Shown piece by piece: positions 43,612-47,329 of a stretch of DNA of 64,000 nucleotides; position 1 is the first letter of the stretch; each line of letters starts with the position of its first letter. Where the stretch lies: NCBI RefSeq assembly GCF_024758725.1, contig NZ_CP096972.1, positions 1,718,001-1,782,000 of the forward strand, written 5' to 3'. The position numbers and the translations under genes are program-made. This stretch comes from Sphingomonas sp. SUN039 (lineage in GTDB: Bacteria; Pseudomonadota; Alphaproteobacteria; Sphingomonadales; Sphingomonadaceae). The notes beneath the pieces were generated by a model. That model was not told where the DNA came from, searched no databases, and saw nothing but the letters and a program-made list of their open reading frames with translations.

Positions 43612-44471
43612 TGCCCCCCGCCTTCGCGCACTGCGCCCCGGTCGCGCAGGTCGATCAGGTGCGCGAGCACCGATCGCCCCGCCGCCGGATAGAGCCGCTC
43701 GTCGACACCCTTGTACATGCGCGGGACCATCGCCGCGATCTCGCCGACACCCTCGCCGACCAGCTTCAGGATTTGCCGCTCGCGCTGCTTGCGGTGGCCG
43801 CCGAGGCCGCGCACGAATTGCTGCGGATTGGTCACCGGTTCGCCGTGTGCGGGGTAATAAACCGCGTCGGTCCGTGCGGCGAGCTTGTCGAGGCTCCGCA
43901 TATAATCCGCCATATCGCCATCGGGCGGCGACACGACTGTGGTCGACCAGCCCATGACATGGTCGCCGGTGAACAGCGCATTGTCCTCGATCAAGTGATA
44001 GCAGAGATGGTTCGACGTATGCCCCGGCGTCGCGACCGCTTCCAGCGTCCAGTCGGGGCCGGTCAGCCGCTCGCCATCCGCCAGCACGCGGTCGGGCGCA
44101 TAGCTGGTGTCGAACGCCGCGTCGGCGCGCGGGCCGTCGTCGTCGAGCACCAGCGGCGCACAACCCACGATCTCCGCTCCTGTCGCGACCTTCAGCGGCG
44201 CAGCGGCAGGCGAATGGTCACGGTGGGTATGGGTGCAGACAATGGCGACGATCCGCTCGCCCGCCGTCGCGCGCAATATACCCTCGATATGCGCGGGATC
44301 GGCAGGACCGGGGTCTATCACCGCAACCTCGTCCATCCCCACGATATAGGTCTGAGTGCCGGTATAGGTGAACGCCGACGGGTTCGCCGCGAGCACCCGC
44401 CGCACGCTCGGGGTCAGTGTCTGCGCGATGTCGGAAATCTGGTCGGTGACGGGCGCTTCCATGCTTCCCAT
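43596..44471 (-). CDS. MBL-fold metallo-hydrolase (LACTB2-like)
   Basis: This 291-residue enzyme has the zinc motif THTHRDH (His81, His83, Asp85, His86), a further ligand region ATPGHTSNHLCYH, and TGDHVMGW. A C-terminal winged-helix-like part (RQILKLVGEGVGEIAAMVPRMY) is as in LACTB2-type RNases and glyoxalase-II-like hydrolases. An ATG three codons later (44462) is an alternative start. Upstream of it lies the hairpin-rich non-coding region. Substrate not determined. Confidence 0.87.
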   Translation of the reverse strand: MGSMEAPVTDQISDIAQTLTPSVRRVLAANPSAFTYTGTQTYIVGMDEVAVIDPGPADPAHIEGILRATAGERIVAIVCTHTHRDHSPAAAPLKVATGAEIVGCAPLVLDDDGPRADAAFDTSYAPDRVLADGERLTGPDWTLEAVATPGHTSNHLCYHLIEDNALFTGDHVMGWSTTVVSPPDGDMADYMRSLDKLAARTDAVYYPAHGEPVTNPQQFVRGLGGHRKQRERQILKLVGEGVGEIAAMVPRMYKGVDERLYPAAGRSVLAHLIDLRDRGAVREGGGQWHPA

Positions 44472-44584
44472 GTGGCGATACTGTCGCTTGCGCGCAATGC
44501 GATGTCGGAAATCCTTACACCCGGAGGGACCGGTAGGGTTTCGCTAACCATCGTAAACCCCGGAAAAGCGGCAAAGTCGCGAGT

Positions 44585-44600
44585 TGGCACGCGCTCTGCA
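44585..44600 (+). promoter_or_regulatory. Sigma-54-like promoter element
   Basis: TGGCACGCGCTCTGCA has the GG-N10-GC spacing of sigma-54 (-24/-12) promoters and differs from TGGCACG-N4-TTGCA at one position. It points away from the MBL gene toward the hairpin region, where no protein gene lies on the plus strand. Predicted start of transcription is near 44611. Confidence 0.4.
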
Positions 44601-44610
44601 TTACTGTCCG

Positions 44611-44706
44611 TGTCCCAACGGCGGTGTCCCCCGCCTGAGCGGCGGGTCGGTGCAGCTTCCCTGGTCTCGCGCACCGACCCGCCCTCGCCCGCCGCGCAGC
44701 GCGGGC
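44611..44706 (+). ncRNA. Candidate structured small RNA downstream of the sigma-54-like element
   Basis: GGCGGGTCGGTGC (44641-44653) pairs perfectly with GCACCGACCCGCC (44671-44683), leaving a 17-nt loop containing CUUCCCU, an anti-Shine-Dalgarno-like sequence. A competing small stem CCCGCC/GGCGGG (44630-44646) overlaps it. GCCCGC/GCGGGC (44687-44706) could close the transcript. No coding potential is seen. Boundaries and expression are inferred. Confidence 0.4.
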
Positions 44707-44791
44707 ACAATTTAACTCCGCTAAATTGCACACGCGCCAGCGTGGACGACATTACGCAGTAATGATCGACGACACGGCTTTGCCGGGTCGA
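44694..44791 (+). repeat. 98-bp hairpin repeat, unit 1
   Basis: Begins GCGCAGCGCGGG. Holds four stem-loops: CAATTTA/TAAATTG (44708-44728), CACGC/GCGTG (44731-44744), CATTAC/GTAATG with loop GCA (44750-44764), and CGGC/GCCG with loop TTT inside CGAC/GTCG (44770-44790). Flanking words GCGCCAGCG and ATCGACGAC recur exactly in unit 2. Confidence 0.85.
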
Positions 44792-44889
44792 GCGCAGCGC
44801 GGGAAGAAATCACGAAGTAATTTCTACCTCGCGCCAGCGCGGCCGACCTTGCTCTTGCAAGGATCGACGACGTGGCTTTGCCACGGCGC
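44792..44889 (+). repeat. 98-bp hairpin repeat, unit 2
   Basis: Directly follows unit 1 with the same order: GCGCAGCGCGGG, AGAAAT/ATTTCT extended by AC/GT (44805-44825), the GCGCCAGCGCGG stem (44828-44841), CCTTGC/GCAAGG with loop TCTT (44847-44862), ATCGACGAC, and CGTGGC/GCCACG with loop TTT (44871-44885). Stems differ from unit 1 in both arms together. Confidence 0.85.
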
Positions 44890-44909
44890 AACGCAGTCAT
44901 TCGAAGGCC

Positions 44910-45007
44910 CGTCGCGGCAAAGCCGCGCCGTCGGTCGTTGGCTTCGCAACGCCGGCCGTGCTTGCGCGTGGAAGAAATAAGTCCCTTATTTCTTCCCGCG
45001 CTAGCGC
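44910..45007 (-). repeat. 98-bp hairpin repeat, unit 3 (inverted)
   Basis: Read on the minus strand it follows the unit-2 plan: GCGCTAGCGCGGG, an 11-bp perfect stem GAAGAAATAAG/CTTATTTCTTC (44971-44995, loop TCC on the plus strand), ACGCGCAAGCACGG, CGTTG/CAACG (44936-44951), and CGCGGC/GCCGCG with loop TTT (44913-44927). Its outer end carries the stop codon of the S46 peptidase gene and its first stem would work as that gene's terminator. Bases 44890-44909 between units 2 and 3 show nothing clear. Confidence 0.8.
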
Positions 45008-47127
45008 ACCCCCATCTCCGTTAACAGCCGCCCCGCCCCATCGACCTTGTCCATCGTCCACAGCATAAACCGCGAATCCGCGTGGATCGTCGTCAACAGC
45101 GCCGGATCGACCGCCCAGTCGGCAATCACCCCGTCCAGTGTCCCGTCGAACGCGAGGCCCACGAACTCGCCCTTTGCGTTCAAGGTCGACGACCCCGAAT
45201 TGCCGTTGGTGATATCGACATTCGACAGATAATTGATCGGCAGCGTCTTCAGCGTCGGATGGGCGTACGGCCCCCAGTCCTTGCGCTTCAGCGCGGCAAT
45301 GAACGGCGCGGGCGCGTTGAAATCGCCTTTCCCCGTCTGCTTGGCGATAATACCCTCGGCCGTCGTGAACGGCGTCCAGGTCTGCCCGTCCTTCGTGCGC
45401 CCGCCTACATTGCCATAGGTGAAGCGCAGCGAGCCATTGGCATCGGGGTACAGCGGCTTGCCCGTCGCATCGCCCCAGGCGCGCATGCCGCCGAGATAGA
45501 CCGAGCGCGCCGCCTGCATCCGCCCTGAACGATCCTTCGCCTTCGCCTCCGCCGCGATGTCGCCCGCGTACATGGCAACCGCGAGGCGGATGAACGGGTC
45601 GGTCGAAGCTTCGAACTCGGCCGGCGTCTTGTCGAGCCAGCCCACCCGCGTCGCGGTGTCGCCCAGTTTCGTATCCGCATAGAGCCGGTCGAGGCCGATC
45701 TCCTTGATCGCCGCCTCGAACGCCGCATTGCGTGCGCCCGCGCCCGCCTTGGCATATTCGCCCAATGCCTGGGCAAGGATCGCCCGGTCGACCCGCGCGA
45801 CATAGCGCCGCTCGATGCCCGTCAGTCGTGCGACCGTTCCCGCGCGATCGCGGTCCTGATAGCCGTTTTCGCGGGCGGCATCGGGCTTGGTATGCTCCTT
45901 CGCCCAGCGATAGGCATTGCGTGCCGCCGACAACAACTGCGCGCGCCCGACCGCCGCCGTCCGCAACGCGTCGAGCCGCGCGGCCTGGTCCTCGGCGACG
46001 ACCGCGTCGAGCGCCGCTACCGATGCACCATAGAGCTTCGTCCTTGCCGCATCGCCCGCGATCCAGCCGCGATACGCCGCTTCCGCGCTTGCCTTGCGCG
46101 CGTTCAGGTCGATGGCATCGGCCCCTGCGATTTCGCCGAGGATCTTCTTCTTGTAATTCTCCACCCCGCGCACGATCGACGCGTAGCGGATGTCGGCCTC
46201 GCGATCCCCGGCCGTCTCGCGAAGGATCAGGTCGGCATAGTCCGACCGCATTTTCTGGTCCGTAGGCGCGAAGGTCGCATAGTTGAACTTCGCCTCCGCC
46301 GCCGTCGCGAGGCGATTGGTGACGCCCGGGAAGCCCGCGACCATCACGAAATCGCCGTCCTTGACGCCCTCGCGCGCGACCGTCAGCTTGGCGGGGTTGC
46401 GATAGGGAACATTATCCTTGCTGTACGTCGCCGACGACCCGTCGGGCGCGACATAGGCGCGGTAGAAGCCCCAGTCGCCGGTGTGGCGCGGCCACATCCA
46501 GTTGTCGGTCTCGCCGCCGAAATTGCCGACGCCCGACGGCGGGGCATAGACGAGGCGGACGTCCTTGATCTCGAGCTGCTGCTGCAACAGGTACAGCGCG
46601 CCGCCATAGTACGGCCGCACGTCGCAGCGTCGGCTCGGCTGCTTCTCGCATGCGGCGATCAAGCCCTTGCGGTTCGCATCGAGCCGGTCGTAGCGCGCGC
46701 GGCCGGACATCGATGCGGTCAGCCCCGCGTTCATCGCCTTGGTCACATCGCGCAGGTCTTCGATGGCATAGATGCGCGCGCCGGGATCGGCGGGCAGTTC
46801 GTCGGCGAGCGTTTTCGCCGTGAAGCCGTCGGTCAGGTAATCCTGCCCCGCTTTCGAATTATACTGGACCGATCCATAGACGCAGTGATGGTTGGTCGCG
46901 ACCAGCCCCTGATTGCTGAGAAACGCCGCCGAACAGCCGCCGAGCGAGACGATGGCGTTCAAGGGCGCGGCCTTGAAATCGCCGAGCTTGGCGGGGTCCA
47001 TCTGCAACCCGCGCTCCTTCATCTTCGCCCCGATCTGGCCGGTCTGCGACGGGAGCCACATGCCTTCATCGGCGATAGCAGCGGCTGGAATCAGCGGAAG
47101 CGTGAGCATGGCAAGCGTACGGAACAT
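45001..47127 (-). CDS. S46 family dipeptidyl-peptidase (DPP7/DPP11-like), exported
   Basis: This 708-residue periplasmic serine peptidase removes dipeptides from N-termini. The signal peptide is MFRTLAMLTLPLIPAAAIA. The catalytic His is in ATNHHCVYG (residues 80-81), Ser644 lies in TNGNSGSSTLN, and EGMWLPSQ starts the mature protein as in the family. ATG 47127 has GAGG upstream; longer open frame to 47292 runs into the operator region of the next cassette. The TAG stop lies within repeat unit 3. Confidence 0.93.
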   Translation of the reverse strand: MFRTLAMLTLPLIPAAAIADEGMWLPSQTGQIGAKMKERGLQMDPAKLGDFKAAPLNAIVSLGGCSAAFLSNQGLVATNHHCVYGSVQYNSKAGQDYLTDGFTAKTLADELPADPGARIYAIEDLRDVTKAMNAGLTASMSGRARYDRLDANRKGLIAACEKQPSRRCDVRPYYGGALYLLQQQLEIKDVRLVYAPPSGVGNFGGETDNWMWPRHTGDWGFYRAYVAPDGSSATYSKDNVPYRNPAKLTVAREGVKDGDFVMVAGFPGVTNRLATAAEAKFNYATFAPTDQKMRSDYADLILRETAGDREADIRYASIVRGVENYKKKILGEIAGADAIDLNARKASAEAAYRGWIAGDAARTKLYGASVAALDAVVAEDQAARLDALRTAAVGRAQLLSAARNAYRWAKEHTKPDAARENGYQDRDRAGTVARLTGIERRYVARVDRAILAQALGEYAKAGAGARNAAFEAAIKEIGLDRLYADTKLGDTATRVGWLDKTPAEFEASTDPFIRLAVAMYAGDIAAEAKAKDRSGRMQAARSVYLGGMRAWGDATGKPLYPDANGSLRFTYGNVGGRTKDGQTWTPFTTAEGIIAKQTGKGDFNAPAPFIAALKRKDWGPYAHPTLKTLPINYLSNVDITNGNSGSSTLNAKGEFVGLAFDGTLDGVIADWAVDPALLTTIHADSRFMLWTMDKVDGAGRLLTEMGVR

Positions 47128-47261
47128 GGGGCGGGCATCCTCGAAATTTGTATGATGCACGGCGGCGTATCGGGAGGAGCGAGCGGGGGCAAGGGGACGA
47201 AAAGTACCTTGCACCGGTATCCGAACGGTTAATTTTGACTTGAATTCCAATTGCTTACACG

Positions 47262-47329
47262 TTCCCCGCAAATCTTTTTCTTTTCCCCGCACATTTATAT
47301 GCGGGGAACTGTTGCAATCTTGCGGGGAA
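47262..47329. promoter_or_regulatory. Four-box dyad operator (TTCCCCGCA boxes)
   Basis: TTCCCCGCA occurs at 47262-47270 and 47283-47291, and its exact reverse complement TGCGGGGAA at 47300-47308 and 47321-47329. Starts within each pair are 21 bp apart, two helical turns, and the two pairs mirror each other about 47295-47296. The array lies 73 bp upstream of the DndB-like gene and 135 bp upstream of the S46 peptidase gene. Likely bound by the small HTH protein of the cassette (inferred). Confidence 0.7.

Follow-up and report, generated by a model that had tools for sequence, protein, structure and literature searches.

The DNA analysed here, referred to as the window, is a stretch of 64,000 nucleotides on contig NZ_CP096972.1 of Sphingomonas sp. 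SUN039. At 44.6-45.0 kb it carries three related units, two in direct and one in inverted orientation. The direct copies share word families with spacings of 98 (D2, D5) and 97 (D3, D4), and the inverted copy is joined to them by the inverted repeat I1, which is 93 nt long and 76% complementary. Each unit is composed of three hairpins, A, B and C, which refines the earlier description. The units span about 44692-44789, 44790-44887 and 45009-44911; the B-C parts were delimited by the covariance model R1 described below and hairpin A by eye. On the plus strand, hairpin A of unit 1 (44692..44745, borders by eye from sequence and folds) overlaps with its right foot the B-C module at 44739..44789 (R1 in the genome search, E 4.3e-10). 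Unit 2, also on the plus strand, has hairpin A at 44790..44842 (borders by eye from sequence and repeat words) and the B-C module at 44836..44887 (E 5.6e-11). Unit 3 is the inverted copy on the minus strand, with the B-C module at 44911..44962 (E 1.3e-12) and hairpin A at 44958..45009 (borders by eye). The foot of this hairpin, GTGC, can pair with GCAC beside B and lies in the last codons of a protein gene that runs into unit 3, an open reading frame at 45001..47292 on the minus strand with the stop codon TAG at 45001-45003. We take its product to be an S46-type peptidase. The earlier note on this DNA had stated that no protein gene covers the region. That is nearly right but not exact, because the arm of unit 3 enters the last codons of this gene.

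The stem exchanges that the earlier note had described are present. Units 1 and 2 have CATTAC/GTAATG against CCTTGC/GCAAGG, altered at two pairs on both arms, and CGGC/GCCG is likewise exchanged for TGGC/GCCA between units. When the 421-base region was folded, z was -11.6 both as DNA and as RNA, and none of 100 shuffles was equally stable. The repeats and hairpins at this locus are thus far from chance; a spurious repeat and chance hairpins were ruled out by the repeat search, the fold z and the covariation measured against shuffles. A scan of the window with Rfam 15 found only two tRNAs and no family above its gathering threshold at the units. With permissive settings, 44480-45020 yielded five matches, all under their gathering scores, so no known RNA family of Rfam 15 was matched by the units.

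On its 5' side, unit 1 begins where a conserved stretch that probably codes for an RNA ends. This candidate gene, for a small RNA containing two hairpins, lies at 44604..44691 on the plus strand and is conserved up to CTCGCCCG at 44684-44691, with unit 1 directly behind it. The stretch is found in six of the seven genus genomes, this genome counted, and ends with CTCGCCCG in five of them and with CTCACCCG in one. Ahead of it, at 44584..44601 on the plus strand, is a candidate promoter, TTGGCACGCGCTCTGCAT (GG-N10-GC), presumably of the sigma-54 type, which is preserved as TGGCAC-N6-TGCA in the six aligned genus genomes. The RNA-gene model R2 found matches in 5 of 59 family genomes (E<=0.01) and the model R3 in 14 of 149 genomes (E<=0.001). 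In 11 of 11 copies checked, the promoter pattern TGGCA[CT]-N5/6-[TC]GC starts 19-21 nt ahead of the modelled RNA; it is outside the models, and two of the 11 copies are in the training set of R3 (itself or the same locus). Neither the window scan nor the permissive scan of 44480-45020 assigned an Rfam family to this RNA, and we regard 44584-44691 (plus strand) as a candidate new small RNA family of Sphingomonadaceae. Its features include an early GTTCC/GTCC word, a long hairpin, the loop word GGTCT (8 of the 11 copies) and, by eye, an ACCAT/GTTAAC-like word upstream. It occurs twice in G056 (0.5 kb apart) and twice in G031 (on different contigs). In G000 and G002 the candidate RNA gene is followed by the repeated element, which is absent from this place in the remaining four of the six genus genomes. 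Since the conserved stretch ends at unit 1, this unit has a gene end like other copies.

BLAST of 44640-45020 of the window against the whole genome returned 64 matching pieces, self-matches counted, and therefore the units are members of a dispersed family. Thirty hand-picked copies were aligned over B-C. They share the constant frame AGCnCGG-M-CGGC-[stem B]-G-A-CCG-ACG-[stem C], in which hairpin B corresponds to CGGMCGG-stem-ACCGACG and hairpin C to CGCGGC TTT GCCGCG. Hairpin B has a foot of CG..CGGC/GACCGACG, a fixed internal loop, a fixed one-base bulge and a variable stem. Hairpin C was modelled as 6 bp with a TTT loop, and its tip GGCTTTGCC is retained in most copies. B-C is flanked by AGCnCGG on one side and mostly by GAC/GGC on the other. 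Hairpin A lies upstream of B; its tip in this genome is often TAGC-nnn-GCTA, and its outer stem varies among copies.

From the 30-copy alignment, RNAalifold recovered the pairs of B unaided, with G-C, C-G and A-T exchanges. Covariation was measured with the structure written out on 20 clean copies, 10 of the 30 being omitted as length variants. Paired cells amounted to 96.9%, double-changed cells to 42 (11.6 in shuffles) and covariation to 0.384 (0.129 in shuffles; 0 of 500 shuffles). The covariance model R1, built from these 20 copies, found 52 places in this genome at E<=1 and 48 at E<=0.01. For a second set, 126 copies at 100 other loci, the alignment was fitted to the model and is hence biased towards it; here pairing was 98.4% and double-changed cells numbered 196 against 47.7 in shuffles (0 of 500). 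In alignment A3, both arms were changed in 196 cells and one arm in 19, or about ten to one, and 32 cells were unpaired. The earlier proposals of a dispersed repeat, with 48 copies in this genome, and of a process that preserves pairing but not sequence were therefore right, and the latter also holds in other genomes. The covariation exceeds chance in both copy sets, and the model search of this and related genomes that had been suggested yielded many further copies with covarying stems. What had been noticed at 44.6-45.0 kb is real and in fact larger, the three units being copies of a dispersed three-hairpin element.

The majority of copies immediately follow the 3' end of a same-strand gene and share its orientation. 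Gene ends were taken from a simple codon-usage gene caller and from ARAGORN, and a copy was counted when a same-strand gene end lay at most 75 nt upstream of the start of B. This was the case for 31 of the 48 copies in this genome (19 of them behind protein genes and 12 behind tRNAs; P 4e-12), for 63 of 99 copies in named records (P 1e-22) and for 21 of 36 in the independent one-contig genome G105 (P 1.5e-7); the background rate is 18.7% of gene-free slots in the window and the 80 named loci. The named records, at least 80 loci, were fetched by the exact pattern for linker plus C, which is why linker and C are constant in them; gene context is unaffected. The 80 listed loci hold 104 matches, of which one was cut by the locus end and four near edges were omitted, leaving 99. 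G105 was chosen without the linker/C pattern, and 36 of its 38 copies were listed.

The three counts are lower bounds, because several other copies follow, by eye, SRP RNA, tRNA fragments or missed stop codons. Of the 17 copies of this genome that failed the distance limit, 9 are at no recognisable gene end and 8 could be placed by eye: one behind the SRP RNA (confirmed by Rfam), two arranged in tandem with the 3' fragment of a tRNA-Gly, one after a degenerate tRNA-Leu fragment and two behind stop codons overlooked by the gene caller, the remaining two being unit 1 behind the candidate RNA gene and unit 2 behind unit 1. Several leftover copies of the named records also stand behind SRP RNA-like sequence by eye. 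The room between gene end and B is occupied by hairpin A, so that in about two thirds of the copies or more a stop codon, a tRNA CCA end or the end of SRP RNA is placed at the foot of this hairpin. The rule uniting most copies, absent from the earlier note, is that the A side adjoins a gene end. Among the options raised there, a structured RNA is favoured, as a predicted RNA, by the orientation behind gene 3' ends.

The host genes include tRNAs, SRP RNA, glnA, rpoA, rpoZ, aceA and hemA, the five protein names each resting on an NCBIfam match above the cut-off for one protein; pntB-like and kup-like host genes scored under the cut-off with truncated proteins. The same gene carries the element in several genomes: rpoZ in 8, rpoA in 6, glnA in 5 and a gene that we take to be rpmG in 4. 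A preference for TAG stop codons among host genes was not significant (P 0.17 and 0.056).

The outer right arm of hairpin A tends to complement the last codons and the stop codon of the host gene and shifts with them across species. For the 76 copies behind protein genes (19 in this genome and 57 in named records), the longest match between arm and gene end averaged 6.03 with the own arm and 4.32 with swapped arms (sd 0.10; 0 of 200 swaps); a contiguous match of at least 6 was present in 32 copies and a shorter one in 44. In ten ortholog groups, the own arm fitted better than that of the ortholog in 115 of 158 ordered pairs, equally in 11 and worse in 32. These pairs are non-independent, 5 of 81 copies were added by hand, one group (L137, L169, L171, L210) is a doubtful cluster, and in two or more rows (L171, L215) the right-arm anchor was misplaced, an error that counts against the finding. 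Pairing with the gene end came to -16.8 kcal/mol for the own arm and -13.4 kcal/mol for the ortholog's arm. At rpoZ, a TAG stop codon is accompanied by CGCTACC in this genome, and a TAA stop codon by CGTTACC in the congener G002. The glnA ends AGCTATTGA, AGCGCGTAA, AGCGCCTGA, AGCGGCTGA and AGCGGGTAA each have their own complement, the last codons TAT, GCG, GCC, GGC and GGG all being matched by their arms, and a glnA-like end in G105 adds the matched variant AGCGGTTGA. At the presumed rpmG, GTAG faces CTAC and GTAA faces TTAC. Judged from these sequences, the matches suggest that hairpin A is often partly built from the last bases of the gene, resulting in a custom-fitted RNA end structure.

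R1 matched all seven genus genomes, with 48, 1, 15, 10, 1, 2 and 4 copies. It also matched 20 of 59 family genomes (each genus represented once, E<=0.01), of which the match in G012 (E 0.0093) looks like chance, and 17 of 147 order genomes (E<=0.001), all 17 in the same family; the share of the 147 outside this family is not given. Among the matches listed, carriers belong to Sphingomonas, Hephaestia, Sphingosinicella, Glacieibacterium and Polymorphobacter or stand under other or no genus names, such as 'Microvirga sp. SRT01'. Turnover was sampled at 16 joined gene ends in four congeners, with 30 of 49 matches fetched. By pattern the element was found at 2 of these 30 orthologous ends; among the 28 negative ends, glnA of G002 retains a remnant by eye and one in G001 is doubtful. 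Since by pattern the element is missing from 28 of 30 ends, copies come and go. Pairing at orthologous loci, to which the earlier note had tied its claim, is therefore seen in part: arms fit their own gene end in the 115 of 158 comparisons above, but at most orthologous ends the element itself is missing by pattern.

Such a distribution could be that of a non-autonomous mobile palindromic repeat (REP/MITE-like) without host function, with the orientation reflecting target choice and the bulge in B enzyme recognition. Hairpins that Y1 transposases recognise typically have a constant bulge. The copy numbers in congeners are very unequal, the element is present or absent at the same gene ends and behind the same RNA gene, three tandem copies stand behind a tRNA-Gly, and head-to-head pairs resemble REP dimers (PMC3733652). 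However, a search for Y1 transposase (PF01797) was blank in four sampled family genomes with 48, 25, 24 and 20 copies (G000, G009, G016 and G044), with one in a further genome, G026, insertion alone leaves the host-matched arms unexplained, the same genes carry the element in many species, and no target-site duplication is definable. We consider this explanation possible but doubtful. Mobility of the element by a Y1 transposase is unlikely, and a RAYT-borne REP was rejected for the copy-rich genomes tested, in which Y1 is absent. Thus, the earlier suggestion of a MITE/REP-like repeat agrees with the patchy spread but not, as far as the Y1 search goes, with an accompanying transposase.

Position and GC-rich hairpins are also what ordinary intrinsic terminators resembling each other would display, and one relative (L062) has a true terminator within the loop of B. 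However, no U-tract was found behind C: the T fraction at +6 to +10 is 0.30 in the copies of this genome and 0.19 in the named copies, and therefore a canonical terminator is excluded. Only 4 of the 48 copies of this genome and 15 of the 99 named ones have a T-run terminator ending at most 75 nt away; such terminators fall within the element itself in 3 of 48 and 0 of 99 copies, respectively, and the words between the stems are constant. These T-run counts rule out identity with the canonical U-tract type, and intrinsic terminators as a whole are an extremely improbable explanation. In the window at 44300-45300, one U-tract terminator site was found where 0.8 are expected. U-tract terminators follow the stop codon within 140 nt in 4 of 51 element-bearing genes and 29 of 236 genes without the element, and within 250 nt in 11 of the 51, so they are not clearly missing from element-bearing genes. 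They were present at 10 of 28 orthologous ends lacking the module against 1 of 10 in this genome, which for a replacement of such terminators by the element is no more than a trend (P 0.23). Element-free genes also have hairpins behind the stop codon, which are weaker (mean gain over shuffles -4.3 vs -8.5 kcal/mol). Hairpins behind genes without a U-run are known as U-tract-less or tandem-hairpin ('U-shaped') terminators; the element differs from them in its constant words and bulge and in being dispersed as one family.

The best reading of these sequences is, in our view, an RNA 3'-end structure with a REP-like distribution, whose arms are perhaps rewritten via template switching. The RNA 3'-end role is favoured by the orientation, by the flush fit at stable RNA ends, by the repeated presence behind housekeeping genes and by the excess of GU in hairpins B and C. 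GU outnumbers AC among mismatches in B and C by 32:14, in model alignments biased towards the model. A first wobble count in B gave GU:AC of 5:18, which probably reflects the inclusion of the fixed M.A internal loop. In hairpin A the ratios were 26:20, 16:10 and 19:12 (P 0.28), a non-significant excess that does not surpass the one in other 3'-flank hairpins (66:35). This lack of a significant wobble bias in A would agree with an element acting as DNA, that is, cruciforms between or behind genes that influence supercoiling. Gyrase/IHF-type sites are reportedly proposed for the BIMEs of E. coli, and the very long palindromes formed by head-to-head pairs and the position behind genes would also suit such a role. 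A cruciform, however, gives no reason for an exact start at a stop codon or tRNA end or for an orientation matched to the gene, and it is opposed by the GU excess over AC in B and C. We regard it as improbable.

As to how the arms arise, a copying process is favoured by the arm matching and by the 196:19 excess of double over single changes. Template switching is the known candidate and yields perfect hairpins by a published mechanism (PMC8794818). The pair asymmetry predicted from this mechanism is half seen, with GC over CG as predicted but AT over TA. Known template-switch RNA hairpins share with the element near-perfect arms and multi-base compensatory changes; there they are described for rRNA and microRNA genes, whereas the element is a dispersed bacterial gene-end repeat (PMC8794818). 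The whole repeat might then be a mutational by-product, in which template switching perfects gene-end palindromes without function or mobility of their own; the ten-to-one ratio, the arms that track the gene end and the mechanism already known (PMC8794818) all speak for it. Such a process, however, would wipe out the unvarying internal loop and bulge of hairpin B, both of which most aligned copies of this genome retain, and it does not explain 48 similar B-C modules. We find it very improbable.

Returning to the RNA 3'-end reading, we give about an even chance to the proposal that the element is a three-hairpin structure at transcript 3' ends, a terminator or stabiliser, with arms rewritten by template switching. 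In the RNA, hairpin A would seal the gene end, and B-C would form a compact knob that might bind a protein at its constant internal loop and bulge. Hairpin A together with the knob would either halt RNA polymerase or secure ends produced by Rho, and would keep 3'-to-5' exonucleases out; in this way the element would act as a U-tract-free terminator or 3'-end stabiliser. For each new gene the arms would be re-made by template switching during replication, one hairpin arm being copied from the other, and selection would help to fit the rewritten arms. Copies would often be gained and lost, as in REP elements. A stronger version is put forward only tentatively and is rather unlikely: a portable B-C knob with a hairpin newly made from the host's last codons, stop codon or RNA end would be a new class of gene-end element, custom-fitted by RNA-end-directed or template-switch copying, and would serve as a U-tract-free transcript end across a bacterial family.

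Among known repeats, GTAG REPs, BIMEs and REPINs with RAYT are likewise dispersed, patchy, clustered and inverted palindromes behind genes, and no terminal GTAG was seen by eye at the ends of B-C in the 30-copy alignment. For the comparison with REPs we also refer to RepRanger (PMC12306157). The CGTC REPs of alphaproteobacteria, as described by Di Nocera et al. 2013 (PMC3733652), share the host group, sphingomonads included, and are likewise short palindromes near ORF 3' ends, often in inverted pairs and without a dedicated transposase; the element differs in its three hairpins per unit, its preferred gene orientation and its host-matched arm. The same text gives CGTC REPs an unpaired end CGTC (or TGTC, CCTC), a stem of 8-9 bp with A-T at pairs one and two, a loop of 4-5 and a short unpaired tail, mostly CCA (PMC3733652). 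The element lies near ORF 3' ends without a dedicated transposase, as far as the Y1_Tnp search extends. It has no terminal unpaired CGTC, the CGTC on the minus strand being located between C and B with two of its bases paired in the consensus. The foot of B and the model of C have no A-T first and second pairs, no 8-9 bp stem and no loop of 4-5, and the B-C flanks AGCnCGG and mostly GAC/GGC hold no CCA tail. Therefore we do not file the element as a CGTC REP, a separation made on the text description. It is REP/BIME-like in distribution and different in its build and fitted arm. Integron attC sites and remnants of group IIC introns were considered, given the bulge in the hairpin and the position next to a gene-end hairpin, and were provisionally set aside on their consensus words. 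No prior description of the element was found in a literature search whose scope leaves out most subscription journals; the string of hairpin C appears in papers, some on Xanthomonas genomes.

If the proposed role is right, RNA ends would be marked by a structured module instead of a U-tract, and a repeat family would fit itself to genes by copying the gene's end. The ortholog series of rpoZ, rpoA, glnA and the presumed rpmG would then be a natural test of whether compensatory change proceeds stepwise via G-U or in a single template switch. With the model, annotators could locate candidate 3' ends of RNAs by the tens in each copy-rich genome of Sphingomonadaceae.

Several copies elsewhere are unusual. 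At L082:1498-1896, a tRNA-Gly 3' fragment together with the element forms three tandem copies 173 bp apart. The copy at L095:1517-1568 (minus strand) is preceded by a degenerate tRNA-Leu-like 3' end by eye and was possibly carried with a duplicated tRNA end. A terminator-like hairpin with a T-run occupies the loop of B at L062:1501-1577 (G026), behind a tRNA-like 3' end by eye. At L018 (about 1551-1585) and L056 (about 1401-1435) there is a different palindrome, CCCCGGACTTGATCCGGGG, with CGTC/GACG alongside, which by eye resembles classical CGTC REPs; in the window it was not found at <=3 mismatches. The tip of hairpin C at L015:1453-1541 (minus strand) holds an inserted repeat-like word, CCTTCGACTGCCTGC...GCAGGCACTCAGGACA, and a word similar to this insert adjoins the copy in L026. 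L085, L087 and L088 have a long hairpin A (e.g. AACAGAAAGGGCGCGTTACC...GGTAACGCGCCCTTTCTGTT) at related places near 2.13 Mb, probably a duplicated stretch.
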